Assembly: GCF_014652575.1 (NCBI RefSeq)
Contig: NZ_BMZB01000001.1
Location: 1,169,722 to 1,233,721, forward strand
DNA length: 64,000 nt
Direction of reading: 5' to 3'
Source: Asticcacaulis endophyticus
GTDB lineage: Bacteria; Pseudomonadota; Alphaproteobacteria; Caulobacterales; Caulobacteraceae
Shown piece after piece: positions 33,124 to 46,506 of the stretch. Position 1 is the first letter of the stretch; every line of letters begins with the position of its first letter. The position numbers and the translations under genes were made by a program. The notes below the pieces were generated by a model. The model was not told the DNA's origin. It worked only from the letters and a program-made list of their open reading frames with translations, and searched no databases.

Positions 33124-33163
33124 TTGACAGGCGGGGTCGCAGGTGGCCTAATTGTGATCACAA
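33124..33163 (+). promoter_or_regulatory. Promoter and TGTGATCACA operator of puuC-gabD
   Basis: TTGACA at 33124-33129 is followed 18-19 bases on by CTAATT/TAATTG, and directly by TTGTGATCACAA (33152-33163), a perfect 12-base palindrome. The palindrome would cover the -10 region or the transcription start, so a bound protein should repress. Same core before puuA, potF and spuC. Confidence 0.78.
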
Positions 33164-33194
33164 ATTCAAGCTCTTACTGAGTGGTGCGATCTCC

Positions 33195-34721
33195 ATGAGC
33201 CTGACGTCCCCCCTGATCCCGATAACCGCTGTGGCTGACACTAAAGCCAGCGTTATCGCCGCCCTGAAAACCGTGTTTAAGCCCGATAAAGGTTTTGTCG
33301 ATGGGCAATGGAGGGCGGCAGCGTCTGGCGCGACCTTCGATAATATTGCCCCGCGCGACGGGACGCTGACCAATCAGATATCAGCCTTTGATGGCGCCGA
33401 TGTCGATGGGGCGGTGATGTCGGCACGGGCTGCCTTTGAGGATGGCTGCTGGAACGGCATGGCCCCGAAAGCGAAAAAGAAAATCCTGCACAAACTGGCC
33501 GATCTGATGGCCGAACATGCCGAAAATCTGGCGCTTTTGGAAGCGCTCGATACCGGCAAGCCGATCCGCGATGCACGCGCGGTTGATATCCCGCTGGCCA
33601 TCAATTCCGTGCGTTACTATGCCGAAGCGCTCGATAAAATTTATGGCGAAGTGGCCCCGTCGCCGGATACGCGCCTGTCCTATGCGGTCCATGAACCTCT
33701 GGGGGTAATAGGTGCGATCGTGCCGTGGAATTTCCCGTTGCATATGGCCATGTGGAAGGTCGCCCCGGCGCTGGCTATGGGCAATTCGATCGTGCTGAAA
33801 CCGGCGGAAAATTCGTCGATGACCGCGCTTTATACAGCGGCTTTGGCGATTGAGGCCGGTCTGCCCGCCGGTGTGTTCAATGTTATCCCCGGTTACGGGC
33901 ATATTGCGGGTGAGGCTTTGGCGCGGCACATGGAGGTCGATATGATCGCCTTCACAGGTTCCGGTCCGGTTGGGCGGCGGCTGATGGTGGCGTCAGCCGA
34001 ATCTAACCTCAAGCGGGTGTCGCTGGAACTGGGCGGTAAGTCGCCGCAGATCGTGTTTGCCGATTGCCCTGATCTCGATGCCGCCGCGCAAAACGCCGCC
34101 TGGGGCGTGTTCTACAATCAGGGGCAGGTCTGCACCTCCGCATCGCGTTTGCTGGTCGAAGAGGGCATCCGCGATGAGTTCGTCGCTAAGGTCATGGCGG
34201 TGGCCAAATCCATTCGCGTCGGTGACCCTTACGATCCTGATACCCAGTTCGGGGCGATGGTCTCTGAGCGGCAGATGAATACCGCGCTCGATTACATCGC
34301 CAAAGGTCAGGCCGGGGGCGGGCAGGTGCTGATGGGCGGTGGACGTGTTCAGTCTGATACAGGTGGTTTTTACGTTGAACCGACCCTGATCGACAATATC
34401 ACCCCCGACAATATTCTGGCGCGTGAAGAAGTATTCGGGCCCGTCCTGTCGGTGCTGACCTTTAAGGATGAAGCCGAAGCGTTCCGCATCGCCAATGACA
34501 CCATCTATGGGCTGGCATCGGGCGTGTGGACCGCCGATATCGGCCGGGCTATGCGATCGGCCAAAGCCTTAAAAGCGGGTCTGGTGTGGATCAATGGCTG
34601 GGATGCCTGCGATATCACCCTGCCGTTCGGGGGCTTTAAGCAGTCGGGTTTTGGCCGCGATCGCAGCCTTCATGCGCTCTATAAATATGCCGATTTTAAG
34701 TCCGTCTCGATCAGTTTTTAG
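33195..34721 (+). CDS. puuC: Gamma-glutamyl-gamma-aminobutyraldehyde dehydrogenase
   Basis: A 508-residue NAD(P)+ aldehyde dehydrogenase. Catalytic Cys is in FYNQGQVCTSASR, the base Glu in LELGGKSPQIVFADC, and the NAD site in IVPWNFPLHMAMWKVAPAL and FTGSGPVGRR. The LGGKSPQIVFADCPDLDAAA stretch is characteristic of PuuC, which oxidises gamma-glutamyl-aminobutyraldehyde in putrescine breakdown. It is first in a run with gabD and an aminotransferase and follows a TGTGATCACA operator. Use of free 4-aminobutanal is also possible. Confidence 0.88.
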   Translation: MSLTSPLIPITAVADTKASVIAALKTVFKPDKGFVDGQWRAAASGATFDNIAPRDGTLTNQISAFDGADVDGAVMSARAAFEDGCWNGMAPKAKKKILHKLADLMAEHAENLALLEALDTGKPIRDARAVDIPLAINSVRYYAEALDKIYGEVAPSPDTRLSYAVHEPLGVIGAIVPWNFPLHMAMWKVAPALAMGNSIVLKPAENSSMTALYTAALAIEAGLPAGVFNVIPGYGHIAGEALARHMEVDMIAFTGSGPVGRRLMVASAESNLKRVSLELGGKSPQIVFADCPDLDAAAQNAAWGVFYNQGQVCTSASRLLVEEGIRDEFVAKVMAVAKSIRVGDPYDPDTQFGAMVSERQMNTALDYIAKGQAGGGQVLMGGGRVQSDTGGFYVEPTLIDNITPDNILAREEVFGPVLSVLTFKDEAEAFRIANDTIYGLASGVWTADIGRAMRSAKALKAGLVWINGWDACDITLPFGGFKQSGFGRDRSLHALYKYADFKSVSISF

Positions 34722-34733
34722 GGGAGTTGCACC

Positions 34734-36179
34734 ATGTCCCTCACCGCCGCCCATAAGGCCCTGCTGGGTAAGCGCATCCTGACAAATGCCAATCACGATA
34801 GTTTTTCGGTCACCAATCCGGCCAACGGCGAAATCTTATGCCACGTCCATAATGCGGGCTCAAAAGAAACGCTGAAAGCCATTGACGCCGCCCATGCCGC
34901 CTTTACGGACTGGGGCCAGAAACCGCAAAAGGTGCGCTCGGATATCCTGAAAAAATGGTTCGCCCTGATCCTTGAGCATACCGAAGATTTGGCGCAAATC
35001 GTTACGCTAGAGCAGGGACGGGCGATCCGCGAGACCCGCGGCGAAGTGGCTTATGGGGCGGGCTTTGTCGAATGGTTCGCCGAAGAAGGCCGCCGGGCCT
35101 ATGGCCGCACAATCCCCGCCAATGTGCCGGGTAAGCAACTGGTGACCATCCAGCAGCCGGTCGGCGTGGTGGCGGCCATCACGCCATGGAACTTTCCGAT
35201 TTCGATGATTACGCGCAAGGTCGCACCGGCGCTTTCGGCGGGTTGCACGGTGGTGTTAAAACCGTCCGAGGAAACGCCGTTGTCGGCGCTGGCGCTGGCG
35301 GAATTGGCCAGACAGGCGGGCTTGCCAGACGGGGTGTTGCACATCATCTGCACCACCAAGGCCGCGGAGGTTGGTGAAATCCTGACGTCCGACCCGCTGG
35401 TCAAGAAGTTCTCCTTCACCGGATCGACGCCGGTCGGTAAAAAACTTTATGCCCAGTGCGCTTCAACCATCAAAAAGATATCGCTCGAACTGGGCGGCAA
35501 TGCGCCGGTGCTAGTGTTTGACGACGCTGATCTGGATGTGGCGGTGGCGGGTGCCATGTTGTCCAAGTACCGTAATGCCGGTCAGACCTGCGTGTGCGCC
35601 AACCGGATACTGGTGCAAGCGGGAATCTTTGATGCCTTTGCCGCCAAACTGACCAAGGCGGCGCGGGCGCTGACGCTGGCGGACGGCATGGCTGAGGAAA
35701 CCGCCATCGGGCCGCTGATCAACCAAAAGGCGGTCGATAAGGTCGATGCGCTGGTCAAGGACGCCACCGCCAAAGGCGCTAAACTGACCGTTGGTGGTGG
35801 TGTGGATGCCGCGTTGGGGCCGCTGTTTTATAAGCCCTCAGTCCTGACCGGTGTGACTCATGACATGCGCATCTTTAATGAGGAAATCTTCGGGCCGGTG
35901 GCGTCCCTGATTAAGTTCAAGGACGAGGCGGAGGGGATTAAACTGGCCAATGACACGCCGTTTGGTTTGGCGGCCTATGCTTTCACTAAGGATGTGTCGC
36001 GCGCCTGGCGGGTGGGGAGGGCGCTCGATTACGGCATGGTCGGCTTAAATGACGGGGTGATGTCCACCGAAGTGGCGCCCTTTGGCGGCGTCAAGGAATC
36101 CGGCATTGGCCGTGAAGGCGCGATTGAGGGCCTTGAGGAATATATGGAAACCAAGTTCCTGAGCTTTGGGGCGCTGTGA
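34734..36179 (+). CDS. gabD: Succinate-semialdehyde dehydrogenase
   Basis: A 481-residue NAD(P)+ aldehyde dehydrogenase of the GabD group. Catalytic Cys in NAGQTCVCANR, Glu in LELGGNAP, NAD site in PWNFPISMITRKVAPALSAG and FTGSTPVGK. The second Cys two residues away is the redox-sensitive pair known from GabD. GGGAG nine bases ahead of the ATG supports the start. Twelve bases after puuC; it would finish the route from GABA to succinate. Confidence 0.92.
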   Translation: MSLTAAHKALLGKRILTNANHDSFSVTNPANGEILCHVHNAGSKETLKAIDAAHAAFTDWGQKPQKVRSDILKKWFALILEHTEDLAQIVTLEQGRAIRETRGEVAYGAGFVEWFAEEGRRAYGRTIPANVPGKQLVTIQQPVGVVAAITPWNFPISMITRKVAPALSAGCTVVLKPSEETPLSALALAELARQAGLPDGVLHIICTTKAAEVGEILTSDPLVKKFSFTGSTPVGKKLYAQCASTIKKISLELGGNAPVLVFDDADLDVAVAGAMLSKYRNAGQTCVCANRILVQAGIFDAFAAKLTKAARALTLADGMAEETAIGPLINQKAVDKVDALVKDATAKGAKLTVGGGVDAALGPLFYKPSVLTGVTHDMRIFNEEIFGPVASLIKFKDEAEGIKLANDTPFGLAAYAFTKDVSRAWRVGRALDYGMVGLNDGVMSTEVAPFGGVKESGIGREGAIEGLEEYMETKFLSFGAL

Positions 36180-36199
36180 TGGTGGGGTGGGGTTTATTG

Positions 36200-36320
36200 T
36201 TCTCCGCCCCCGTTTACGGGGGAGGGGGACCACGAAGTGGTGGAGGGGGGAACCTTTGCCGTTATGCCCCCTCCGTCTGGCCTTCGGCCATCCACCTCCC
36301 CCGTAAACAGGGGAGGAGAA
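36200..36320. repeat. MITE-like element with about 26-base terminal inverted repeats
   Basis: The left end TTCTCC-CCCCCGTTTACGGGGGAGG and right end CCTCCCCCGTAAACAGGGGAGGAGAA are inverted copies of one another. Between them lie CCACGAAGTGG and GGCCTTCGGCC hairpins. About 121 bases, no gene inside. GGGGAGGAG at the right tip serves as ribosome binding site of the next gene. Related sequences are at 6451, 23034 and 46543. Confidence 0.85.
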
Positions 36321-36321
36321 T

Positions 36322-37698
36322 TTGAGTGTTTCCCTACCCGCCGCTGCCCATGCCCTGAACACGCCGCTGATGGAGTTTATCCTGTCGGAAACGGCGCGGT
36401 TTCTGGATGCCCGCCCAAACACCAAAGCCCTGGCCGAAAGATCAGGGAGGGTTTGGCGAGGCGGGGCACCCATGCACTGGATGAGCGACTGGGCCTCCCC
36501 CATCCCCATCTATGCCGCGCGCGCCGAAGGGGCAAAACTGTGGGATGTCGATGGCTTTGAGTATGACGATTTCTGCTTGGGCGACACCCCGTCAATGTTC
36601 GGACATGCCCGCCCCGAAATCGCCCGCGCCATAGCTGAGCAGGCGACAAACGGTGTCGGCTTTATGCTACCGACGGAGACAGCGGTTGAGGTTGGCGAAA
36701 TGCTGACACAGCGTTTTGCGATGGCGAAATGGCAGATGGCCACAACTGCGTCTGATGCCAATCGCGCCGTCATTCGCTGGGCGCGGGCGATCACCAACAG
36801 GCCAAAAATCCTGATCTTTGATGGCTGTTATCACGGCATGGTCGATGACGCCTTTGTGGTACTTGAGGACGCCACACCGATCATGAAAAAAGGCCTGATC
36901 GGGCAGGTGGCGGATTTCATCGACACCACGACCGTCATTCCGTTCAATGACCTTGATGCCCTCGAAGATGCCCTGAAATATTGTGATATCGCCTGCGTGT
37001 TGTGTGAGCCGGTGATGACCAACTGCGGCATGATCGCGCCCATTGACGGGTTCCATGAAGCTTTGCGTAATCTTACACGCAAATACGGAACCCTGCTGGC
37101 GATCGATGAGACCCACACCCTGTCGTCGGGCTATGGTGGCTATACTCGCGCCCACGGCCTTGAGCCCGATATGTTCGTGGTCGGCAAAGCGATCGCCGGG
37201 GGCGTGCCTGCCGCGGTGTGGGGTGTGACCGAAGAGGTCTCCGCCCGCATGGATCAGGCGCAGGCGGCCATCGGCGCGGGCTCAAGTGGCATCGGCACCA
37301 CCCTGTCCGGCAATGCTCTGGCCATGTCCGCCATGAAGGTCATGCTGACCGAAGTCATGACCGAGGCGGCTTTCGCACACATGATCAAAGGCGCAGAAGA
37401 CCTTGTGGCCCAATTACGGGCAGCTATCGCTGTAAAGGGACTGAACTGGAGTGTTGTACATGTCGGCGCACGGGTGGAACTGGTGTTTGCGGGTCATCCG
37501 CCGCGAACAGCCGCAGAGATGCGCGCGGCTATGAACCCTTTAGAGCTTAAAGCTTTTCATCTTTATCTGATCAATCAGGGCCTGTTGATTGCGCCCTTTC
37601 ACAATATGATGCTGATATCCCCGTTGACATCGCCTGAGGCTGTCGCGCGTCTGGTTGCGGCGATATCCGCATTTGGCCGCATCATCCGGCCAAATTAA
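36322..37698 (+). CDS. Class III aminotransferase, glutamate-1-semialdehyde mutase-like
   Basis: A 458-residue PLP enzyme. PLP motifs: VIRWARAI, DGCYHGMVDDAFV, LLAIDETHTLSSGYGG, and Lys in MFVVGKAIAGGVPAAVWG. It resembles glutamate-1-semialdehyde aminomutase-type aminotransferases, but its place after puuC-gabD suggests use of GABA or another polyamine-derived amine, with no gabT nearby; that is inference. The start is TTG at 36322, placed after GGAGGAG that belongs to the repeat before it. Confidence 0.78.
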   Translation: MSVSLPAAAHALNTPLMEFILSETARFLDARPNTKALAERSGRVWRGGAPMHWMSDWASPIPIYAARAEGAKLWDVDGFEYDDFCLGDTPSMFGHARPEIARAIAEQATNGVGFMLPTETAVEVGEMLTQRFAMAKWQMATTASDANRAVIRWARAITNRPKILIFDGCYHGMVDDAFVVLEDATPIMKKGLIGQVADFIDTTTVIPFNDLDALEDALKYCDIACVLCEPVMTNCGMIAPIDGFHEALRNLTRKYGTLLAIDETHTLSSGYGGYTRAHGLEPDMFVVGKAIAGGVPAAVWGVTEEVSARMDQAQAAIGAGSSGIGTTLSGNALAMSAMKVMLTEVMTEAAFAHMIKGAEDLVAQLRAAIAVKGLNWSVVHVGARVELVFAGHPPRTAAEMRAAMNPLELKAFHLYLINQGLLIAPFHNMMLISPLTSPEAVARLVAAISAFGRIIRPN

Positions 37699-37701
37699 AA
37701 A

Positions 37702-37713
37702 ATGTGATCACAT
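37702..37713 (+). promoter_or_regulatory. Operator palindrome before puuA
   Basis: ATGTGATCACAT is a perfect 12-base palindrome four bases after the aminotransferase stop and 93 bases before puuA. Shares the TGTGATCACA core with three other sites in this cluster. Confidence 0.78.
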
Positions 37714-37771
37714 GGCGAATATCGCGTGACGGACGGGGCGGTTCGATCTTAAGGTGTGGCTTGCAACCGCG

Positions 37772-37787
37772 TCAGCCTATAGGCTGA
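37772..37787 (+). promoter_or_regulatory. Second palindrome in the puuA leader
   Basis: TCAGCCTATAGGCTGA is a perfect 16-base palindrome 19 bases ahead of the puuA ATG. It is unlike the TGTGATCACA core. It could form a small mRNA hairpin over the ribosome binding region or bind another protein. Confidence 0.5.
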
Positions 37788-37806
37788 ACGAAACCATGAG
37801 CATAGC

Positions 37807-39210
37807 ATGACCGAACCCTATTTGCCCCCGCATCCGATGGTCGCCACGCCTGATGAGGCCAAGGCCTTCCTTGAGGCTCACCCGCATCTCAACTATTTCG
37901 AGATCCTGTTTACCTCGATGACCGGGGTGCCGCGCGGCAAGCGTCTGCGCCGCCATGAACTGCTGCCGATTTTTGAATATGGCCGTTTTCTGCCGGGCTC
38001 AATTCTGGTGGTCGATACGCTTGGGGCCGACTGCGAAGAGACCGGCCTTGTCTGGGAAGACGGTGATGCCGACCGGATTGCGCGTCCTGTGCCGGGGACG
38101 CTGACAGAGGCGCCGTGGCTGGGTGATGATGTCGGTCAGGTCATGCTGTCGCTCTATGAACTCGACGGCACGCCCAATGATCTTGATCCGCGCCATGTGC
38201 TGCAGCGGGTGCTGGATCGCTATGCCGCCGATGGCCTGACGCCGGTGGTGGCGTGCGAACTGGAATATTATCTGGTGGACATTGAGCGCGGCCACGACGG
38301 TCAGCTTATGCCGGCCAAGGGTTTTAACACCGGTGAGACGCCACGCGGCATTCAGGTCTACGGTCTGCCCGAAGTCGAGGCTCACGGTGAGTTTTTCCGC
38401 ACCCTGTGGGAAACCGCCGATGTCATGAATATCCCGCTCGAAGGCGCGATTTCAGAATTTGCACCGGGGCAGGTTGAGCTGACCCTGAAGCATAAGCCTG
38501 ATGCCTTACGCGCCTGCGATGATGCCGTGCTCTATAAGCGCATGGCCAAGGGCGTGGCTTTGTCGCTGGGTATCGAGGCGACCTTTATGGCCAAGCCGTG
38601 GGCTGATCGCGCTGGGTCGGGCTTCCATGTTCATATTTCGGTGGCCGACAAAGACGGCAAAAACCTGTGCGCGTCTGATGATCCGCAGGGCTCTGATCTG
38701 CTGAAAACCATGATCGGCGGCATGAAAGACCATCTGGCCGACTGCATGGGCATCCTGGCCCCCGGCGCCAACAGCTTTAAGCGCTTTAAGGCCAATTCCT
38801 ATGCGCCGGTCGGCCTGACCTGGGGGGTGAATAACCGCACGGTATCGCTCCGTGTGACCGCAGGGCCGTCGCATACCCGCCATGTCGAACACCGCGTCGC
38901 CGGGGCCGATGCCAATCCCTATCTGGTCATGGCCGCTATTCTGGCCTGCGCCCACCACGGCATTACGAATAAAACTGATCCGGGACCTGCGGTAGTCGGC
39001 AATGGTTATGAGGTGGCCGCCAAGACGGGGGCTAACCTGCCGACCAACTGGTATGCGGCGGTCGATTATCTCGACAAATCCGCCACCTTGCGCGACTATC
39101 TGGGCGATCGGTTCGTCGATATGTACGTTAAGGTCAAGCGCACCGAGCAGGCGCGGTTTTACGAAGAGGTCACGTCGCTCGATTACGACTGGTATTTGAG
39201 AAACGCTTAA
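37807..39210 (+). CDS. puuA: Glutamine synthetase family, probable gamma-glutamylputrescine synthetase
   Basis: A 467-residue member of the glutamine synthetase family. N-terminal beta-grasp HLNYFEILFTSMTGVPRGKR; metal/substrate motifs ACELEYYLVD, SEFAPGQVEL, KPWADRAGSGFHVHIS, and the ATP region NSFKRFKANSYAPVGLTWGVNNR. The lack of the adenylylation Tyr loop and its location beside puuC, puuD and a polyamine transporter point to ATP-dependent gamma-glutamylation of putrescine rather than ammonia assimilation. Other amines (ethanolamine, spermidine) are not excluded. Confidence 0.87.
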   Translation: MTEPYLPPHPMVATPDEAKAFLEAHPHLNYFEILFTSMTGVPRGKRLRRHELLPIFEYGRFLPGSILVVDTLGADCEETGLVWEDGDADRIARPVPGTLTEAPWLGDDVGQVMLSLYELDGTPNDLDPRHVLQRVLDRYAADGLTPVVACELEYYLVDIERGHDGQLMPAKGFNTGETPRGIQVYGLPEVEAHGEFFRTLWETADVMNIPLEGAISEFAPGQVELTLKHKPDALRACDDAVLYKRMAKGVALSLGIEATFMAKPWADRAGSGFHVHISVADKDGKNLCASDDPQGSDLLKTMIGGMKDHLADCMGILAPGANSFKRFKANSYAPVGLTWGVNNRTVSLRVTAGPSHTRHVEHRVAGADANPYLVMAAILACAHHGITNKTDPGPAVVGNGYEVAAKTGANLPTNWYAAVDYLDKSATLRDYLGDRFVDMYVKVKRTEQARFYEEVTSLDYDWYLRNA

Positions 39211-39229
39211 GATTGTGCGCTGCGGGCGC

Positions 39230-39239
39230 TGTGATCACA
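39230..39239 (+). promoter_or_regulatory. Operator palindrome before potF
   Basis: TGTGATCACA lies 19 bases after the puuA stop and 104 bases before the binding-protein ATG. TTGACA at 39248-39253 follows closely, suggesting a promoter just downstream, although a clear -10 box is not seen. Confidence 0.75.
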
Positions 39240-39342
39240 CTTAGGAGTTGACAGAGGGTTAATCCCGTATTCTGTTACTAATATTACGGTTTCATGAAGG
39301 GGGTTTCATGATGAGGCCCGCGAATATCACGGAGATCAGGAT

Positions 39343-40437
39343 ATGAGTTCACCTCGCCATCTGGCTAATCGTCGTTCCTTACTCGCGGGGCTGGGGGCTG
39401 CGGCTGTCGGCATCAGCTTTTCGGCCTGCTCCAAGCCCGCCGAAAAGGCCACGACCGACGGGGCCGAAGAGCCCAAGCTGAACTTCTATAACTGGGACAC
39501 CTATATTGGTGAAACGACTCTGGCGGACTTTAAGACCGCCACGGGCATCGACGTCAACATGCAGCTATTTGCCACCAATGACGAACTGTTCGCCAAGCTT
39601 AAGGCGGGCAATTCCGGCTTTGACGTGATCGTGCCGTCGAACGAATTTGTCACCCGCATGGGCCAGGCCGGTCTGCTGAAAGCGCTGGATCACGCCAAGA
39701 TCCCGAACATGAAAAATATCGACCCGCAGTATCTGAACCCCAGCTTCGATCCGGGCAATAAGTTCTCGGTGCCCTATACCTGGCTGGTGCTGGGCCTCGG
39801 TTACCGTAAATCCAAGTTCAAGACGGTGCCGGATAGCTGGAAATACGTCTTCGACAGCGCCGAATATAAGGGCAAGATCGCCCTCCTGTCGGAATCCGCA
39901 GACCTGATCCGTCTGGCCGCGAAATATAAGGGCGTCAGTCTCAATAATATCTCGCCTGACATGCTGACCCAGATCGAAGCGATGCTGGTCAAGCAAAAGC
40001 CCAATATCCGCGCTTTCCACGAAGATAATGGTCAGGACATGCTGCAAGGCGGCGACGTCGATATCGTGATCGAATATAACGGCGATATCGCGCAAGTTAT
40101 GGCCGAAGATGACGACATCGGCTTTGTGGTGCCGAAAGAAGGCAGCCTGCTGAATTCCGATACCCTGTGTATCCCGGTCGATGCGCCGCGTCCGAACAAC
40201 GCCCATGCCTTCATCAACTACATCCTTGATGCGCAGGTAGGTGCCGAAATCTATAAGACCATCCTCTATCCGTCGCCGAATGCCGCCGCCAAGGCGCTGA
40301 TGCCGGACGATTATAAGAACAATCCGGTTATCTTCCCGCCGGCGGATATTCTGGCCAAGTGCGAATACGGTGCGTTCGAGGGTGCGGAAAAAGCGTCGCA
40401 GTTTGAGGAAATTATTACGCGGGTCAGGGCTTCCTAG
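39343..40437 (+). CDS. potF: Polyamine ABC transporter substrate-binding protein
   Basis: A 364-residue PotD/PotF-type periplasmic binding protein. The N-terminus has NRRSLLAGLGAAAVGISFSAC, an RR-signal ending in a lipobox Cys (about 29). The mature start LNFYNWDTYIGETTLADFKTATGIDV is the conserved polyamine-binding-protein opening, with WDTY supplying an aromatic box residue; SVPYTWLVLGLGYRK is typical. Delivers putrescine or spermidine to the permease below. A 130-base gap with a palindromic repeat separates it from the permease genes. Confidence 0.93.
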   Translation: MSSPRHLANRRSLLAGLGAAAVGISFSACSKPAEKATTDGAEEPKLNFYNWDTYIGETTLADFKTATGIDVNMQLFATNDELFAKLKAGNSGFDVIVPSNEFVTRMGQAGLLKALDHAKIPNMKNIDPQYLNPSFDPGNKFSVPYTWLVLGLGYRKSKFKTVPDSWKYVFDSAEYKGKIALLSESADLIRLAAKYKGVSLNNISPDMLTQIEAMLVKQKPNIRAFHEDNGQDMLQGGDVDIVIEYNGDIAQVMAEDDDIGFVVPKEGSLLNSDTLCIPVDAPRPNNAHAFINYILDAQVGAEIYKTILYPSPNAAAKALMPDDYKNNPVIFPPADILAKCEYGAFEGAEKASQFEEIITRVRAS

Positions 40438-40440
40438 CCT

Positions 40441-40549
40441 TTCCTTCTCCCTGCGTGCGGGGAGAAGGTGATCCGTAAGGATCGGATGAGGGGCATTCGG
40501 GCGCCCGGCCCCTCACCCCAACCCTCTCCCCGCGTGCGGGGAGAGGGGG
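40441..40549. repeat. Dispersed CTCTCCCCGCGTGCGGGGAGAG-type repeat
   Basis: CTCCCTGCGTGCGGGGAGAAGGTG at the left and CCCTCTCCCCGCGTGCGGGGAGAGGG at the right enclose GATCCGTAAGGATC and GGGCGCCC hairpins. Elements like this are common between genes in many bacteria. It may end, slow or protect the mRNA between potF and potH, setting more binding protein than permease. Confidence 0.85.
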
Positions 40550-40570
40550 CGCCGTTGCAAGGGGACTGCG

Positions 40571-41479
40571 ATGGAACAAAGCTGGCGGCAGGCGAAGTCA
40601 ATTTTCGGGCTGCTGCTGAGTGCGCCCCTGTTTTGGCTGGCCTTTTTCTTTATCGTGCCGATGGGTATTGTCTGGCTCTATTCGTTCGGAGAAAACCGTG
40701 GGCTGGTCGATATCGCCTTTACCGGCACCTGGAAAAACTACGCCCGCGCGCTGGAACCGCTGTATCTCGGCATCTTCGTGAAATCGCTTTATGTGGCCGC
40801 ACTCACCACCTTTCTGTGTCTGGTCGTGGGCTTTCCGGTGGCGCTGGCCATTACCTTTGCCGCCGATAAATGGAAGCCGTGGCTGCTGCTGCTGATCATG
40901 CTGCCGTTCTGGACCAACCTTCTGATCCGCACCTATGCGCTGATTGCGGTGTTGCGCACCGAAGGCTATGTCAATCAAACCTATGAGGTTTTATGGACGA
41001 ACGCCGGTGGATTAATGACGCTGGTGGGCTTAGCCCCCTTGGGGGAGTTTCAGCCGCTAGATCTGCTGCACAATAATTTCGCGGTGATTTTCGGTCTGGT
41101 CTACGTCCACCTGCCGTTCATGATCCTGCCGCTCTATTCGACGCTGGACCGGATGGACCGCTCGCTTTTGGAGGCGTCGCTCGATTTGGGGGCTGGGCAT
41201 TTTCGGACCCTGTGGTCGATCGTTGTGCCGATGTCGGCGGCGGGGATCGCGTCGGGTATTCTGATCACCTTCATTCCGGCACTCGGCGCGTATCTGACGC
41301 CGGATCTGCTCGGCGGGCCGGAGTCGCAGATGATCGCCAATGTCATTGAACGGCAATTCAAGCGCGCCAATGACTGGCCATTCGGGGCGGCGCTGTCGTT
41401 CCTGCTGGTCTATCTGACCTTCATCGGTATCGCCATTCAGGGCATGCTCGACAAACAAAACCGGGGGAGGGCGGCCTGA
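40571..41479 (+). CDS. potH: Polyamine ABC transporter permease (PotB/PotH)
   Basis: A 302-residue inner-membrane permease with six predicted helices. The ABC permease EAA loop is present: EASLDLGAGHFRTLWSIVVPMSAAGIASG (about 194-222). The pair of permeases, ATPase and PotF-type protein form a full importer. Its stop overlaps the next ATG (TGATG). Confidence 0.93.
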   Translation: MEQSWRQAKSIFGLLLSAPLFWLAFFFIVPMGIVWLYSFGENRGLVDIAFTGTWKNYARALEPLYLGIFVKSLYVAALTTFLCLVVGFPVALAITFAADKWKPWLLLLIMLPFWTNLLIRTYALIAVLRTEGYVNQTYEVLWTNAGGLMTLVGLAPLGEFQPLDLLHNNFAVIFGLVYVHLPFMILPLYSTLDRMDRSLLEASLDLGAGHFRTLWSIVVPMSAAGIASGILITFIPALGAYLTPDLLGGPESQMIANVIERQFKRANDWPFGAALSFLLVYLTFIGIAIQGMLDKQNRGRAA

Positions 41480-42354
41480 TGACCCAGTCTGTTGCCAAGG
41501 TTAAAAAGACCCCGCCCGGCCCGCTCGAATATATGCGCCGGTGGCCGATGCAGGCTTGGCTGGTCGGGGTGACGGTGTTCCTGTATGCGCCGCTGATCAC
41601 CCTGATGATCTTTTCGTTCAACGACAGCAAACGTAACATCGTCTGGCAGGGCTTTACCCTGAAATATTACGTTAAGGCCCTTACGAATGAGAGCCTGATT
41701 CAGGCCTTCACCAATTCGCTGGTGATTGCGTTTTTCTCGACCATCATCAGTGTGGTGGTGGGGGCTATGGCGGCCATCCTTCTGTGGCGGTTCCGCTTTC
41801 CGGGCAAGACGGCGCTGGACGGGGCCATGTCGATCCCGATCGTTGTGCCGGAAATCTGCATGGGTGTGGGGATGCTGGTATTCTTCGCCAAGGTCTTTCC
41901 GTGGCCGCAAGGCATGATCTGGCCGCTCAATCTGGGGGCCATCATCATCGCCCACGTCTCGTTCTCCTTCCCGTTCGTGGCGGTGGTGGTGCGCGCCCGT
42001 CTGGCGTCATTTAACCGCGAACTGGAAGAAGCGGCCAAGGATCTGGGGGCGTCAGAAATCCGAACCCTGCTGGATGTGCTGGTGCCGCATATCAAGCCGT
42101 CTTTGCTGGCGGGCGGGCTTCTGGCCTTTACCCTGTCGCTCGATGATTTTGTGATTACTTTCTTCACCGCCGGGCCCGATACGGTCACCTTCCCGGTCAA
42201 GGTCTATTCGATGGTGCGGTTCTCGGTCACCCCTGAAGTCAACGCCGCCTCAACCATACTGATCGTGGTAACGGTGATCCTGACCTTCTTTGCGCTGAAA
42301 TTCCAGGGCTCTGACGCCCTGACCGCCGGTCATGGCGCTGCTGACAAAAAGTGA
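41479..42354 (+). CDS. potI: Polyamine ABC transporter permease (PotC/PotI)
   Basis: A 291-residue permease with six helices; EAA loop EEAAKDLGASEIRTLLDVLVPHIKPSLLAG (about 178-207), then SLDDFVITFFTAGPDTVTFPVKVYSMVRF, the PotC/PotI consensus. Start codon overlaps the potH stop. Ends nine bases before potG. Confidence 0.93.
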   Translation: MTQSVAKVKKTPPGPLEYMRRWPMQAWLVGVTVFLYAPLITLMIFSFNDSKRNIVWQGFTLKYYVKALTNESLIQAFTNSLVIAFFSTIISVVVGAMAAILLWRFRFPGKTALDGAMSIPIVVPEICMGVGMLVFFAKVFPWPQGMIWPLNLGAIIIAHVSFSFPFVAVVVRARLASFNRELEEAAKDLGASEIRTLLDVLVPHIKPSLLAGGLLAFTLSLDDFVITFFTAGPDTVTFPVKVYSMVRFSVTPEVNAASTILIVVTVILTFFALKFQGSDALTAGHGAADKK

Positions 42355-42362
42355 GGCTGAAC

Positions 42363-43508
42363 ATGTTTGACGAAACCGCAAAACCGGCTGAGGCTCAGGG
42401 CAAAACCATCATCAGCTTTAAAAACGTCTCCAAACGCTTCGGCAAAAACGTCGCGGTCGATAATGTCTCGCTCGACATCAAGGAGGGCGAGTTCTTTTCG
42501 CTGCTGGGGCCGTCGGGCTGCGGCAAGACGACTTTGCTGCGGATGCTGGCCGGGTTTGAAATGCCGTCGGATGGACAGATACTCATCGACGGCCATGATG
42601 TGTCGCAGGTCTCACCCAATAAGCGGCCGGTCAATATGGTGTTTCAGTCCTATGCTGTCTTTCCGCATATGACCGTGCTTGATAACGTCGCTTACGGCCT
42701 GAAAATGGATGGGGTGCCCAAGGGGGAACGCCTGGCGCGCGCTCAGGAAGCGCTGGAACTGGTGAAGCTCGGCGGGTTCGGGGAACGCAAACCTGATCAG
42801 ATGTCGGGCGGTCAGCGTCAGCGGGTGGCGCTGGCGCGGGCCTTGGTCAAAAAACCGCGCGTATTGTTGCTAGATGAGCCGTTATCGGCGCTTGACGCCA
42901 AGCTGCGTGATGCCATGCGCACGGAGCTTACCCTGCTTCAGGAAAAGGTCGGTATTACCTTTATCATGGTCACTCACGATCAGGATGAGGCGCTGGCCAT
43001 GGCGACGCGCTGCGCGGTCATGAACCGCGGCCTACTGCAACAGGTGGCGACCCCGTTTGATCTTTATGAGTTTCCCAATTCGCGCTTTGTGGCCGATTTT
43101 ATCGGCAGCGTGAACCTGTTTGAAGGCACGCTGGATGTCGATGAGCCAGATCATGCCATCATCAACACCACCGATATCGGGCCGATCTATCTCGACCACG
43201 GCGTGACGGGCGCGACCGGTGCGACGGTGTGGGCGGCGGTGCGGCCGGAAAAGATTGAGATCGACAAATGGGATGCCAAGCCGCTTAAAATGGAAGACGC
43301 GCCCGAAGGCTACAACATCATCGCCGGTGAGATTAAGCATCTGGTCTATCTGGGCTCGGAAACCGTGTATGAGGTTGAGGTGGCGGGCGGACGCATGGTC
43401 AAGGTCTTGCGCTCAAACCTGACGCGCTGGGATCAGGAAGACTTCACCTGGGACGAAAAGGTATGGCTGTCGTTCAATGCCTGCGCGCCTGCGGCGCTCC
43501 TAAGTTAA
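42363..43508 (+). CDS. potG: Polyamine ABC transporter ATPase (PotA/PotG)
   Basis: A 381-residue ATPase. Walker A GPSGCGKTT, Q loop VFQSYAVFPHM, signature MSGGQRQRVALARAL, Walker B LLLDEPLSALD, switch His in MVTHDQDEA; C-terminal TOBE regulatory domain (AAVRPEKIEID). ATG at 42363 is chosen, five bases after GAGG; a GTG at 42351 overlaps potI and is possible. The next gene starts on the base after its stop. Confidence 0.94.
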   Translation: MFDETAKPAEAQGKTIISFKNVSKRFGKNVAVDNVSLDIKEGEFFSLLGPSGCGKTTLLRMLAGFEMPSDGQILIDGHDVSQVSPNKRPVNMVFQSYAVFPHMTVLDNVAYGLKMDGVPKGERLARAQEALELVKLGGFGERKPDQMSGGQRQRVALARALVKKPRVLLLDEPLSALDAKLRDAMRTELTLLQEKVGITFIMVTHDQDEALAMATRCAVMNRGLLQQVATPFDLYEFPNSRFVADFIGSVNLFEGTLDVDEPDHAIINTTDIGPIYLDHGVTGATGATVWAAVRPEKIEIDKWDAKPLKMEDAPEGYNIIAGEIKHLVYLGSETVYEVEVAGGRMVKVLRSNLTRWDQEDFTWDEKVWLSFNACAPAALLS

Positions 43509-44234
43509 ATGAAACCCCTGATCGGTATTTCCTGTTGCAACCGTGATGTCGGCGGTGAAAACGCCCAGACCGTCAAGGATCGCTACGTCAAGAGCGTGAT
43601 TGAATATGCCGACTGTCTGGCGGTGCTGATCCCGGCGATTACCACAGGGTTTGAGGCTAAAACTCTGGCGGGCAAACTGGATGGCCTGATGCTGACCGGA
43701 TCGACCTCCAACATCTACACGCGGTTTTATGATCCTGACACCCCGGCGGGCGAAGGTCCGTTCGACGTGGACAGGGACGGTGTATCTTTTGCCATGATCG
43801 AAGCCATGATCGACGCGCAAAAACCGGTGTTCGGCATTTGCCGCGGCTTTCAGGAAATCAATGTCGCCTTGGGTGGCACGCTGCGGCGCGATCTGGGGCC
43901 TAAACACCATGCGCCTGACACCGCTACTTTCAACGACATGTTCGAGTTTGGACACGACGTGACCCTGATCGACGGCGGTTTTTTTGAGGAACAGTTGGGC
44001 GGCAACCTCTGGGTCAACTCCGTCCATTTTCAAGGTGTGGCGCGGCTGGCCGATGGCCTGACTATGGAGGCTGTGGCGCCTGATGGCATTGTTGAGGCCT
44101 TCAGCGCCAATCTTGGCGGATCGCAGGTCGTGGCCGTGCAGTGGCACCCGGAATGGCGCCCTGCCGACTATCCCGACCGGCAGAGCTTTTTCCAATGGCT
44201 AGGTCAGGCCGCCCGCGGTGAAGCGGTGGTGTAA
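43509..44234 (+). CDS. puuD: Gamma-glutamyl-GABA hydrolase (class I glutamine amidotransferase-like)
   Basis: A 241-residue PuuD-type hydrolase that frees GABA from gamma-glutamyl-GABA. Nucleophile Cys in FGICRGFQEINVALGG; His and Glu in VQWHPEWRP. Opening residues PLIGISCCNRD fit the family. It has no gap from potG and overlaps the next ATG by one base, so it is translated with both. Confidence 0.92.
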   Translation: MKPLIGISCCNRDVGGENAQTVKDRYVKSVIEYADCLAVLIPAITTGFEAKTLAGKLDGLMLTGSTSNIYTRFYDPDTPAGEGPFDVDRDGVSFAMIEAMIDAQKPVFGICRGFQEINVALGGTLRRDLGPKHHAPDTATFNDMFEFGHDVTLIDGGFFEEQLGGNLWVNSVHFQGVARLADGLTMEAVAPDGIVEAFSANLGGSQVVAVQWHPEWRPADYPDRQSFFQWLGQAARGEAVV

Positions 44235-45034
44235 TGGCTGATCGCCGCACATTACATATCGTATTCAGCTTATCTGCCCCCGTCCATTTGCGCCGTGCCC
44301 TGCAAACTGTGGACAAGGATGAAGATGTTATTGGTTTAGGTGCTGACTGGTCATTTGGCCCACTTGCTGATGCAGAAGTGCGTAAAGCTTATGTTGAGCC
44401 TGCGTTGGGCTATGTTGATGAAGAATGGGATGACCAGATCAAAAGCTTTTGGGAAAGATCGCTAAAGTTCGATGGTCGTCGGGTCGTTTGGTTCTCACGC
44501 CGTCAACCCAGGGAATATTGTAATTTTCTGGAATGGCTGAGGCTTAATGGCGATCAGACTTTTGAAGTTATCGATCTGAGCGATAGCTATATTACCACCT
44601 TAAAAGGTCAGAGATTTCTGGTGGGTAGTGTTTCACGCGTTGGCGATAATGAGTTTGTGTCCGAAGCCTTCTGGGATCATGCTCGTCTGCCTGCTCTTAG
44701 TGAGCTTCGGGCATGGCGGAGTCTATGGGAGACGCTACGTGAGGAGAACGCGCCGATACGGGTGGTGACGATTAATGGTCTGGTTTCTCGGGAGCTTGAT
44801 TGTTTCGATGATGAGTTACTAAGCTATATCAAAGGCCGATGGATAAAGGCGTATCGTGTCGTCGGAAATGTAATGGCTGATATGTTGCGTAATGTAGGTG
44901 TTATTCAAACAAGTGACCTGGTGCTGCGCTTCCGTCTTCAGGAATTGCTCGATGCGGGTACCATCGAGACCAAAGGCGTTAGCAATATTTCCGCACGCAC
45001 ATGGCTTAGGCGACCACGGCATCATACCCAATAA
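44234..45034 (+). CDS. DUF1835/DUF3658 domain protein of unknown function
   Basis: A 266-residue protein. N-terminal DUF1835-like region (LHIVFSLSAPVHLRRALQ ... DVIGLGADWSFGPL), C-terminal helical DUF3658-like region. Function of both families is unknown. It starts on the last base of puuD and stops inside the operator of spuC. Codon use is unlike its neighbours: three 60-base lines I counted here have 45-50% G+C, versus 55-65% in puuD. It may be a late arrival in a polyamine operon. No membrane segment. Confidence 0.8.
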   Translation: MADRRTLHIVFSLSAPVHLRRALQTVDKDEDVIGLGADWSFGPLADAEVRKAYVEPALGYVDEEWDDQIKSFWERSLKFDGRRVVWFSRRQPREYCNFLEWLRLNGDQTFEVIDLSDSYITTLKGQRFLVGSVSRVGDNEFVSEAFWDHARLPALSELRAWRSLWETLREENAPIRVVTINGLVSRELDCFDDELLSYIKGRWIKAYRVVGNVMADMLRNVGVIQTSDLVLRFRLQELLDAGTIETKGVSNISARTWLRRPRHHTQ

Positions 45035-45057
45035 AATTGTGATCACAATTTTATTGG
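45028..45057 (+). promoter_or_regulatory. 30-bp perfect palindrome, operator before spuC
   Basis: Perfect inverted repeat centred between 45042 and 45043: left arm CCAATAAAATTGTGA, right arm its exact complement. It contains the TGTGATCACA core. The stop codon of the DUF1835 gene lies in its left arm, 58 bases before spuC. It may also act as a weak terminator for that gene. Confidence 0.85.
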
Positions 45058-45114: not shown

Positions 45115-46506
45115 ATGAACCGGCCGCTTAAAAACTACGATATTGCCGAACTGAAACGCCTGGATCTGGCGCATCATTTGCCGGCGCAGGCGGACTACAA
45201 GCTGCTGGAAGATATCGGCGGATCGCGCATCATTACCCGCGCCGAAGGCTCCACCATCTATGACGGCGAAGGCCATTCGCTGCTGGACGGCATGGCTGGT
45301 CTTTGGTGCGTCAATGTCGGTTACGGGCGCGATGAACTGGCGCGCGCCGCCTATGAGCAGATGCTGGAACTGCCGTATTACAACACCTTCTTTAAGACCG
45401 TGACGCCGCCGCCGGTGCGGCTGGCTACAAAGATCGCGCAGAAAATGTCGGTCGGCAATCCTGACCTTCAGCATGTGTTTTTCAACTCGTCCGGGTCTGA
45501 GGCCAATGACACCGTGCTGCGGCTGGTGCGCTATTACTGGCAGCTTAAGGGCGAGCCGGAGCGCAATATCATCATCAGCCGCAAGAACGCCTATCACGGC
45601 TCAACGGTGGCCGGGATGTCGCTTGGTGGGATGAGCTTTATGCACGCTCAGGGTGGGCCGATGGTGCCGGGCATTGAGCATGTCCGCCAGCCCTATGCGT
45701 TTAACGAAGGCTTTGGCCAAGACCCGGCGGCGTTCGCGCAGGTCTGCGTCGATGATATCGAAGCCCGTATTCTGGCCGTGGGGCCTGACAAGGTTGCGGC
45801 CTTCATCGGTGAGCCGGTGCAGGGGGCGGGCGGCGTGATCATTCCGCCGGAAGGCTACTGGCCCAAGGTTGAGGCCCTGTGCCGCAAATACGGTATTCTG
45901 CTGATCTGCGATGAAGTTATTTGCGGCTTTGGCCGTTTGGGCCAATGGTTCGGCCATCAGCATTACGGCATCAAGCCGGATGTCATCGCCATGGCCAAGG
46001 GGTTGTCGTCAGGTTATTTGCCCATTTCGGCGGTCGGGGTGTCGTCAAAGATTGTCGAGGTACTGAAAACCGGCGGCGATTTCGTCCACGGCTATACCTA
46101 TTCCGGCCATCCGGCGGCGGCGGCCGTAGCACTTGCCAATATCGAGATTCTCGAACGCGAAGGCTTGGTTGAACGCACGCGTAACGACACCGGCCCTTAT
46201 CTCGCCAAGGCGTTGACGCGCTTGAACGACCATCCGTTGGTCGGTGAGGCGAGATCGCTCGGCCTGATTGGTGCGGTCGAGATCGTGTCTGAAAAAGGCA
46301 CTAACCATCGCTTTGGTGGCAAGGAAGGCACGGCCGGACCACTGGTGCGCGACCTGTGCATCAAAAACGGCCTGATGGTGCGCGGCATCCGCGACAGCAT
46401 CGTCATGTGCCCGCCGCTGATCATCACTCATGAGGAAATCGACCGGATTGTCGACGTCATCGAACAGTCGCTCAATGAGGCGGAGCCGAAGCTGCGGGCG
46501 TTGTAG
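45115..46506 (+). CDS. spuC: Polyamine (putrescine):pyruvate aminotransferase
   Basis: A 463-residue class III aminotransferase. PLP features: NSSGSEANDTVLRLVRYY, DEVICGFGRLGQWFG and Schiff-base Lys in AMAKGLSSGYLPISAVG. WCVNVGYGRDELA and KNAYHGSTVAGMSLGG are typical of SpuC and related putrescine or omega-amino acid:pyruvate aminotransferases. In this cluster it gives a route from putrescine to 4-aminobutanal without glutamylation. Beta-alanine or GABA as amine donor cannot be ruled out. Confidence 0.88.
   Translation: MNRPLKNYDIAELKRLDLAHHLPAQADYKLLEDIGGSRIITRAEGSTIYDGEGHSLLDGMAGLWCVNVGYGRDELARAAYEQMLELPYYNTFFKTVTPPPVRLATKIAQKMSVGNPDLQHVFFNSSGSEANDTVLRLVRYYWQLKGEPERNIIISRKNAYHGSTVAGMSLGGMSFMHAQGGPMVPGIEHVRQPYAFNEGFGQDPAAFAQVCVDDIEARILAVGPDKVAAFIGEPVQGAGGVIIPPEGYWPKVEALCRKYGILLICDEVICGFGRLGQWFGHQHYGIKPDVIAMAKGLSSGYLPISAVGVSSKIVEVLKTGGDFVHGYTYSGHPAAAAVALANIEILEREGLVERTRNDTGPYLAKALTRLNDHPLVGEARSLGLIGAVEIVSEKGTNHRFGGKEGTAGPLVRDLCIKNGLMVRGIRDSIVMCPPLIITHEEIDRIVDVIEQSLNEAEPKLRAL

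Follow-up and report, generated by a model that had tools for sequence, protein, structure and literature searches.

This report concerns TGTGATCACA, a 10-bp palindrome, and the polyamine gene cluster in which it is repeated in Asticcacaulis endophyticus. The window is the whole stretch of DNA that was analysed (64,000 nt; assembly GCF_014652575.1, contig NZ_BMZB01000001.1, positions 1,169,722 to 1,233,721). bp, base pairs; nt, nucleotides. Positions refer to the window unless a contig (C) or a locus (L) is named.

The polyamine cluster and its palindromes

Four exact copies of TGTGATCACA are found in the window, at 33153-33162, 37703-37712, 39230-39239 and 45038-45047. They precede puuC, puuA, potF and spuC respectively, as had been claimed in the original prediction. 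The distance from palindrome to start codon is 32 nt (puuC), 94 nt (puuA), 103 nt (potF) and 67 nt (spuC). The perfect palindrome around the copies is 12, 12, 10 and 30 bp long, in the same order. No one-mismatch copy was found in the whole 64-kb window.

The 11 genes of the cluster are all encoded on the plus strand. Copy 1 (33153..33162; exact match, conserved between regulator and puuC in relatives) is abutted by the likely puuC promoter (33124..33152, plus strand, recognised by conservation), made of TTGACA (33124-33129), 17 nt and CCTAAT (33147-33152). Next come the gene of a puuC-like aldehyde dehydrogenase (33195..34721; best NCBIfam match PuuC, 565.8 bits, under the cut-off of 850), gabD, encoding succinate-semialdehyde dehydrogenase (34734..36179; TIGR01780, 648.5 bits, cut-off 646.35), and the gene of a pyridoxal-phosphate aminotransferase of the PRK07046 subfamily, HemL-like (36322..37698; 659.9 bits, cut-off 425). 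Copy 2 (37703..37712, exact match) is followed by a puuA-like gene for a gamma-glutamyl-polyamine synthetase of glutamine-synthetase fold (37807..39210; GGputSyn, 203 bits, under the cut-off of 650).

Copy 3 (39230..39239, exact match) lies 8 nt before the TTGACA of the likely potF promoter (39248..39253, plus strand, conserved gap). The transport genes encode a potF/potD-like polyamine-binding protein (39343..40437; NCBIfam PotF, 206 bits, under the cut-off of 636), a potB/potH-like permease (40571..41479; best NCBIfam match PotB, 220.8 bits, under the cut-off of 348), a potC/potI-like permease (41479..42354; best NCBIfam match PotC, 243.1 bits, under the cut-off of 326) and a potA/potG polyamine ABC ATPase (42351..43508; TIGR01187, 388.3 bits, cut-off 355.6). 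A puuD-like gamma-glutamyl-GABA hydrolase (43509..44234; 138.6 bits, under the cut-off of 266) is encoded next. GABA, gamma-aminobutyrate. A DUF3658/DUF1835 protein (44234..45034; Pfam) is encoded between puuD and spuC. Copy 4 (exact match, core 45038-45047) is contained in a perfect 30-bp palindrome (45028..45057) before the gene of a spuC-like (putrescine) aminotransferase of the PRK07480 subfamily (45115..46506; 691.4 bits, cut-off 510).

No PuuB-like oxidase was found among the family-profile matches of the 11 cluster genes. Named relatives carry the gene of the HemL-like PRK07046-subfamily aminotransferase in their puu operon wherever the stretch extends that far; the enzyme is perhaps a polyamine or glutamyl-polyamine transaminase replacing PuuB. 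In two Asticcacaulis loci (L076:17079-18128 and L080:8014-9057), a second, divergent potF-like protein (47-51%) is encoded between puuA and the operator-bearing potF.

Copies in the host genome

The host genome (3.95 Mb, 13 contigs) contains 13 exact copies of TGTGATCACA. The fair background is given by the 15 other words fitting TSWGATCWSA (GATC-centred), which occupy 49 places genome-wide (62 less 13), an average of 3.3 for each word (0.053 in 64 kb). Shuffled versions of the window gave 1.51 occurrences for 31 words (about 0.05 per word), so the earlier expectation of about 0.06 per 64 kb holds. The 30 one-mismatch words occupy 77 places in the genome (2.6 per word). The Poisson probability of at least 13 copies when 3.3 are expected is 4e-5; the genomic excess is real. 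A reversed-pattern control was not used, since it contains CTAG and is unfairly low (1 for the reversed degenerate pattern vs 62). Many unrelated genomic copies had been named in advance as grounds for abandoning the regulon; this was not what was found, as most of the 13 copies, apart from the few attributable to chance, are at amine or amino-acid genes.

Nine copies lie outside the window. They are found between a GntR/FCD gene and aptA (L001; aptA, omega-aminotransferase, 732.9 bits, cut-off 500), between a TonB receptor gene and a cyanophycinase/isoaspartyl-peptidase gene (L002), before mmsA (L003; 653.8 bits, cut-off 448.5), before gabT (L004; 571.3 bits, cut-off 506.65), between a glutamine-synthetase-like gene (gs2) and a SpoU methylase gene (L009), between ald and an Lrp-like gene (L010; ald, 489.8 bits, cut-off 391.85), before a TonB receptor gene (L011), between two TonB-like genes (L012) and near a GH43 gene, where there is no clear target (L013). 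AptA of this regulon is presumably the beta-alanine omega-transaminase of Caulobacter crescentus.

L002 (G000:C1:66740-66818) holds two operator copies separated by 69 nt, one exact and the other with one mismatch. Its gene, divergent from the TonB receptor gene, encodes a cyanophycinase-type domain fused to an isoaspartyl-peptidase domain; use of cyanophycin or dipeptides is possibly tied to the TGTGATCACA regulon. One-mismatch copies at G000:C1:574593 and 750282, about 2-3 kb from the mmsA and gabT operators, are possible second sites.

The candidate regulator gene and its locus in relatives

The candidate regulator is encoded by the GntR/FCD gene at C1:36646-37323, which adjoins aptA with a copy of TGTGATCACA between them. 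The aptA-GntR pair (C1:36.6-38.8 kb) and the puuC operator (C1:1202874) are 1.17 Mb apart. A GntR-type regulator outside the window had been anticipated; genome comparison supports this and points to the aptA-linked gene. Another FCD gene, near gabT (L004:2372-2941), was considered and is not supported, the conserved neighbour of the palindrome being the aptA-linked gene; no test aimed at the gabT-side gene was made.

A search of 199 genomes of the window's family gave regulator matches in 79 genomes, at 80 places (E 1e-20 or better). Among the best 30 of these 80 places, own genome and near-identical genomes included, the exact palindrome lies within 700 bp of the regulator gene in 30/30. When all palindromic 10-mers are counted, the runner-up is found in 4 of these 30 loci. 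A search of named genomes gave 24 loci, from Asticcacaulis, Caulobacter and two MAG records named to order or phylum (MAG, metagenome-assembled genome). Exact TGTGATCACA stands beside the GntR/FCD gene in all 24.

In 17 of the 24 named loci the order is aptA, palindrome (exact or one mismatch), GntR gene, exact palindrome, puuC-gabD-aminotransferase-puuA and potF, with potB, potC and potA from potF onward as far as the stretch extends. In L073 no puu genes are seen, through either a split like that of the window's genome or an effect of the contig; L081, L090 and L094 stop early, L095 begins inside the regulator gene and L096 has no puuC match. The copy between regulator and puuC is exact in 21/21 named loci holding puuC there. 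The copy on the aptA side is exact in 10/10 Asticcacaulis loci and carries one mismatch (TGTGATCGCA or its complement) in 11 of the 13 other named loci holding aptA; L087 and L090 have no aptA-side copy, one mismatch allowed. The likeliest history, as read from these gene orders, is a break of the cluster between the regulator gene and the puuC operator, the operator staying with puuC.

Co-occurrence and conservation of targets

Within the 199 family genomes, the palindrome is present in 79/79 genomes having a regulator match vs 41/120 without (mean 0.47 copies in the latter). By class of match, the site is present in 25/25 genomes of the same genus (mean 9.0 copies), in 32/32 with matches at 53-61% (mean 1.9) and in 22/22 with matches at 35-43%, which may not be orthologues (mean 2.2). 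In one genus (g22), the site is found in 30/30 genomes with a regulator match vs 2/8 without.

Conservation at individual targets was scored in the upstream 300 nt in 25 genus genomes, about 0.007 hits being expected per 301-nt stretch. The gs2 upstream region carries the site in 24/25 (exact) or 25/25 (one mismatch allowed). Orthologues of gabT (76-100% identity, in 17 genomes) have 16 exact sites, and 17/17 when one mismatch is allowed. The second gabT copy (63-65%), an internal negative control, has the site in 0/7.

Three genomes were read site by site (G080, G075 and G104, with 15, 11 and 4 sites). In all three, sites precede spuC, puuC or the regulator gene, and aptA or an aptA-like gene; sites precede mmsA in G080 and G075, and potF in G080. 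At potF, the copy is found in 8/8 named Asticcacaulis loci reaching that gene. Before spuC, L159, L106 and L062 keep the TGTGATCACA core; none of these three aligned relatives has the 30-bp symmetry in full.

The class-level search (385 genomes) gave 29 genomes matching at 1e-30 or better; G000 and G020 belong to the window's family. The class-level loci (L126-L154) are 29 of the 35 places outside the own genome. The exact palindrome is found near the regulator gene in 9 of these 29 loci (32-45% identity), where it is the commonest palindromic 10-mer. The neighbours of the site-bearing class-level regulators differ, as judged from translated starts only, without family search. The exact palindrome is absent at some class-level regulator genes with spuC-, gs2- or potF-like neighbours. 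Another GATC-centred palindrome, TTTGATCAAA, is found near distant regulators in 6/29 loci (L131, L132, L133, L134, L145, L150).

In a regulator tree of 43 rows, whose alignment lacks nine of the 24 named loci and two of the 29 from the class level, TGTGATCACA is scattered, and its presence or absence would have changed at least 6 times. The idea that operator types divide cleanly along the tree was rejected, as TGTGATCACA is scattered and TTTGATCAAA does not form one clade.

Geometry of the proposed operator and promoters

For regulators of the VanR group a short palindromic operator at the core promoter is expected; the palindrome sits at the likely core promoter of puuC, as predicted from conservation. 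All 21 named loci with puuC have a TTGAC[AT] box 19-25 nt before the puuC operator; in the window the distance is 23 nt. TCTAAT or CCTAAT abuts the operator in the window and in five Asticcacaulis loci, 17-18 nt after the box, and the operator would there span roughly -6 to +4. Box and operator are 19-20 nt apart in the 13 Caulobacter-type loci, which would place the operator across part of the -10 region. A site on or just after the -10 most likely serves for repression, in line with the placing of this copy at the -10 or start of a TTGACA promoter in the original prediction.

At potF, the operator is followed by exactly 8 nt and TTGACA in 9/9 sequences (the window and eight named Asticcacaulis loci). 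A generic promoter scan listed neither the puuC nor the potF promoter, and both are therefore read from conservation. When half-sites were pooled (109 distinct sites), AT-rich flanks were found over four positions.

The candidate regulator protein

The regulator has a GntR winged helix (PF00392, 51.2 bits) and an FCD domain (PF07729, 77.9 bits), both above the gathering cut-offs, and belongs to the FCD subfamily of GntR regulators. The AlphaFold2 model, built with 43 homologues, has a pLDDT of 90.6 and a pTM of 0.86 (pLDDT, predicted local distance difference test; pTM, predicted template modelling score). Six helices follow the winged helix in the model (86-109, 113-131, 135-152, 156-180, 190-198 and 202-225). 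Members of the FadR group have seven helices in the C-terminal domain. Six helices in this domain define the VanR group, as stated for AlkR in PMC12042122, so the modelled protein is placed in this group; on the model, the regulator joins the VanR-type FCD/GntR proteins as a new member.

The closest solved structure is that of McbR/YncC (4p9f; profile E 1.7e-45; TM, template modelling score, 0.84/0.90). The profile PRK11414, which we take to be that of McbR, is matched at 93.3 bits vs a cut-off of 225, and the CsiR profile PRK11534 at 40.6 bits vs 218; the regulator falls outside both families. In the profile alignment to TM0439 (3fms), the places of the residues that we take to bind metal are occupied by N142, H146, H190 and D212, the third histidine being replaced by aspartate. 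In 43 sequences, H146 is invariant and N142, H190 and D212 are at least 90% conserved. Metal-binding FCD regulators have three histidines and one aspartate or asparagine in the pocket (PMC7797058); as a residue pattern only, the profile alignment does not give this set here, and the protein may still bind metal.

The regulator has SPMPVREA where 7u5q and 3c7j have SRTPVREA or SRMPVREA. Arg45 of Atu1419 reads guanine (PMC7797058); by motif spacing, rather than by alignment to Atu1419, this base-reading residue appears to be replaced by Pro54. The Asp-for-His pocket and Pro54 are leads.

Predicted mechanism

Very probably, one VanR-group FCD/GntR repressor, relieved by a product of polyamine breakdown, switches the whole pathway through TGTGATCACA as its operator, a site mostly flanked by AT-rich sequence. 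Sequence itself shows the sites and how they are conserved, their association with the regulator gene and where the promoters lie; binding, repression, effector and substrate assignments are inferred. The regulator dimer would read the two half-sites of TGTGATCACA. Bound on or just downstream of the -10 at puuC, it would block RNA polymerase; at potF the site abuts the -35 region from upstream. Through the site between the divergent regulator gene and aptA, the protein would control its own gene. A polyamine-breakdown product would bind the FCD pocket, upon which the repressor would leave and the pathway would be turned on together. The best guess for the effector is an omega-amino acid (GABA, beta-alanine) or a gamma-glutamylated amine.

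The pathway assignment is predicted from family names, several of which scored below equivalog cut-offs. Uptake would be by potFBCA and glutamylation by the PuuA-like enzyme and the second glutamine-synthetase-like enzyme (gs2). SpuC, AptA and the HemL-like aminotransferase would carry out transamination, PuuC oxidation and PuuD hydrolysis. GabT and GabD would convert GABA to succinate; AptA and MmsA would lead the aminopropyl half via beta-alanine and malonate semialdehyde to acetyl-CoA. Ald would recover pyruvate from the alanine made by pyruvate-dependent transaminases. The regulon seems to cover the route from import of polyamines to succinate and acetyl-CoA. Of the polyamine regulon first proposed, the shared operator stands on genome comparison; its restriction to polyamines does not, genes of beta-alanine, GABA and alanine metabolism being added.

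Points against and alternative explanations

Several observations weigh against a repressor regulon of this breadth. Chance alone would account for about 3 of the 13 copies in the genome. The 2.0-Mb genome G016, which has no regulator match, has 7 copies of the palindrome, none of them adjoining regulon genes (27 query proteins). In G080, G075 and G104, 13 of the 30 sites have no clear match among these 27 proteins; some are in, or at the edge of, open frames, and chance or other targets remain for them. The ald upstream region keeps the site in 10/17 loci, one mismatch allowed, 5 being exact (an 18th locus was cut off and seven genomes had no match at threshold). The cyanophycinase-type gene has the site in 15/21 loci, 11 of these with one mismatch (7 of the 11 are TGCGATCACA) and 4 exact, in near-identical genomes. 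The AT-rich flanks on the two sides match as complements no better than their composition predicts, so the palindrome is confined to the 10-mer and a longer one was dropped.

Some targets are restricted in range. The puuA copy is found in one of the eight named Asticcacaulis loci reaching puuA (L074), and also in genome G154 (L172). The potF copy is found in 0/12 Caulobacter-type loci. In G104 the palindrome occurs just 4 times and never at potF. Most Caulobacter genomes carry 1-3 copies; the wide regulon is therefore seen for Asticcacaulis only. By this distribution of sites, the potF and puuA copies are lineage-specific.

The potF copy, upstream of the -35, would suit an activator also. The same regulator might be an activator or a dual regulator, activating potF from there and repressing puuC and its own gene. 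This is unlikely: the exact 8-nt gap before TTGACA in all nine potF sequences fits it, and against it stand the puuC site, on or after the -10, where binding would block polymerase, and the VanR-group proteins Atu1419 and AlkR, which are repressors (PMC7797058 and PMC12042122).

It is improbable that another regulator, such as a CRP-family protein or the Lrp/AsnC protein encoded divergently from ald, has the palindrome as its operator and also controls the GntR gene. One copy does lie between ald and the lrp-like gene, and TGTGA and TCACA resemble CRP half-sites. The palindrome nevertheless stands beside the GntR gene in every one of the best 30 of 80 family loci, and near it in 9 of the 29 class-level loci, as the commonest palindromic 10-mer. 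The Lrp-like protein was judged an unlikely binder, as seven genus genomes lack the ald site and yet retain exact copies at every regulator locus. The CRP site is TGTGA-N6-TCACA and needs a 6-nt spacer; the half-sites of TGTGATCACA abut without spacer in all 13 genomic copies. The CRP-like reading was thus rejected, and the resemblance remarked on in the original prediction is superficial, the palindrome tracking the GntR/FCD gene.

That the four window copies are a chance or composition effect has almost no probability: comparable GATC-centred words have about 3.3 copies per genome, so single copies can be random, but 0.05 are expected in 64 kb vs 4 found, all before genes of one cluster, and the sites are conserved at orthologous promoters and absent at the gabT paralogue. 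By position in relatives, conservation speaks against chance for the puuC, potF and spuC copies; the puuA copy alone could be incidental.

Comparison with known systems

Polyamine catabolism control is best known from PuuR of Escherichia coli and from Pseudomonas. PuuR represses the glutamylation-type putrescine pathway; it is an XRE/cupin protein with another operator, unrelated to the GntR/FCD protein. McbR/YncC of E. coli (4p9f) is the closest by sequence and fold, yet at 27% identity, and its gene context differs from that of the regulator described here. The targets of CsiR of E. coli also differ from those predicted here. CsiR is a GntR/FCD regulator linked to GABA genes (PMC6265302, judged by listing). 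In C. crescentus, an omega-transaminase is active on beta-alanine (PMC3281772).

Atu1419, a VanR-group repressor of Agrobacterium fabrum, is described in PMC7797058. It has a GntR winged helix and an FCD domain, and its operator is a continuous 10-bp palindrome overlapping the -10 box, as is predicted here. It binds before a catabolic cluster and its own gene; here the corresponding sites alone are found and binding is predicted. It differs in its operator (ATGTATACAT vs TGTGATCACA), in its pathway (hydroxycinnamate degradation), in Arg45, which appears as Pro54 here, and in the third metal histidine, which is aspartate here.

In the open-licence literature, judged by listing or start of abstract, no description of the regulator or operator was found; a prior description is possible in subscription papers or RegPrecise. 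The TGTGATCACA string occurs in 12 papers of the open literature; judged by titles, 11 of them deal with eukaryotes and the remaining one with degradation by Sphingobium (PMC12724174). With no description found, the regulon and the regulator are regarded as new, of a known regulator type.

Significance

In a broader and tentative view, the regulator would be the master switch of total polyamine breakdown in Asticcacaulis, covering uptake, both carbon branches (the putrescine half to succinate, the aminopropyl half to acetyl-CoA) and alanine recycling; it would sense the amine or omega-amino acid directly through a pocket with aspartate for a metal histidine, and its specificity for TGTGATCACA would be old in the class (9/29 distant loci) and recruited to different pathways.

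The analysis points to a different regulator, with a precise predicted operator, that is shared by Asticcacaulis and Caulobacter; among the latter are records under the name Caulobacter vibrioides (L091, L095, L096). The predicted pathway regulon of Asticcacaulis ties together polyamine, GABA, beta-alanine and alanine metabolism. It offers a handle on uncharacterised enzymes: the HemL-like aminotransferase, the second glutamine-synthetase-like enzyme, the DUF3658 protein and the cyanophycinase-type gene product. The predicted operator and repressor form an easily tested pair and a possible amine biosensor.

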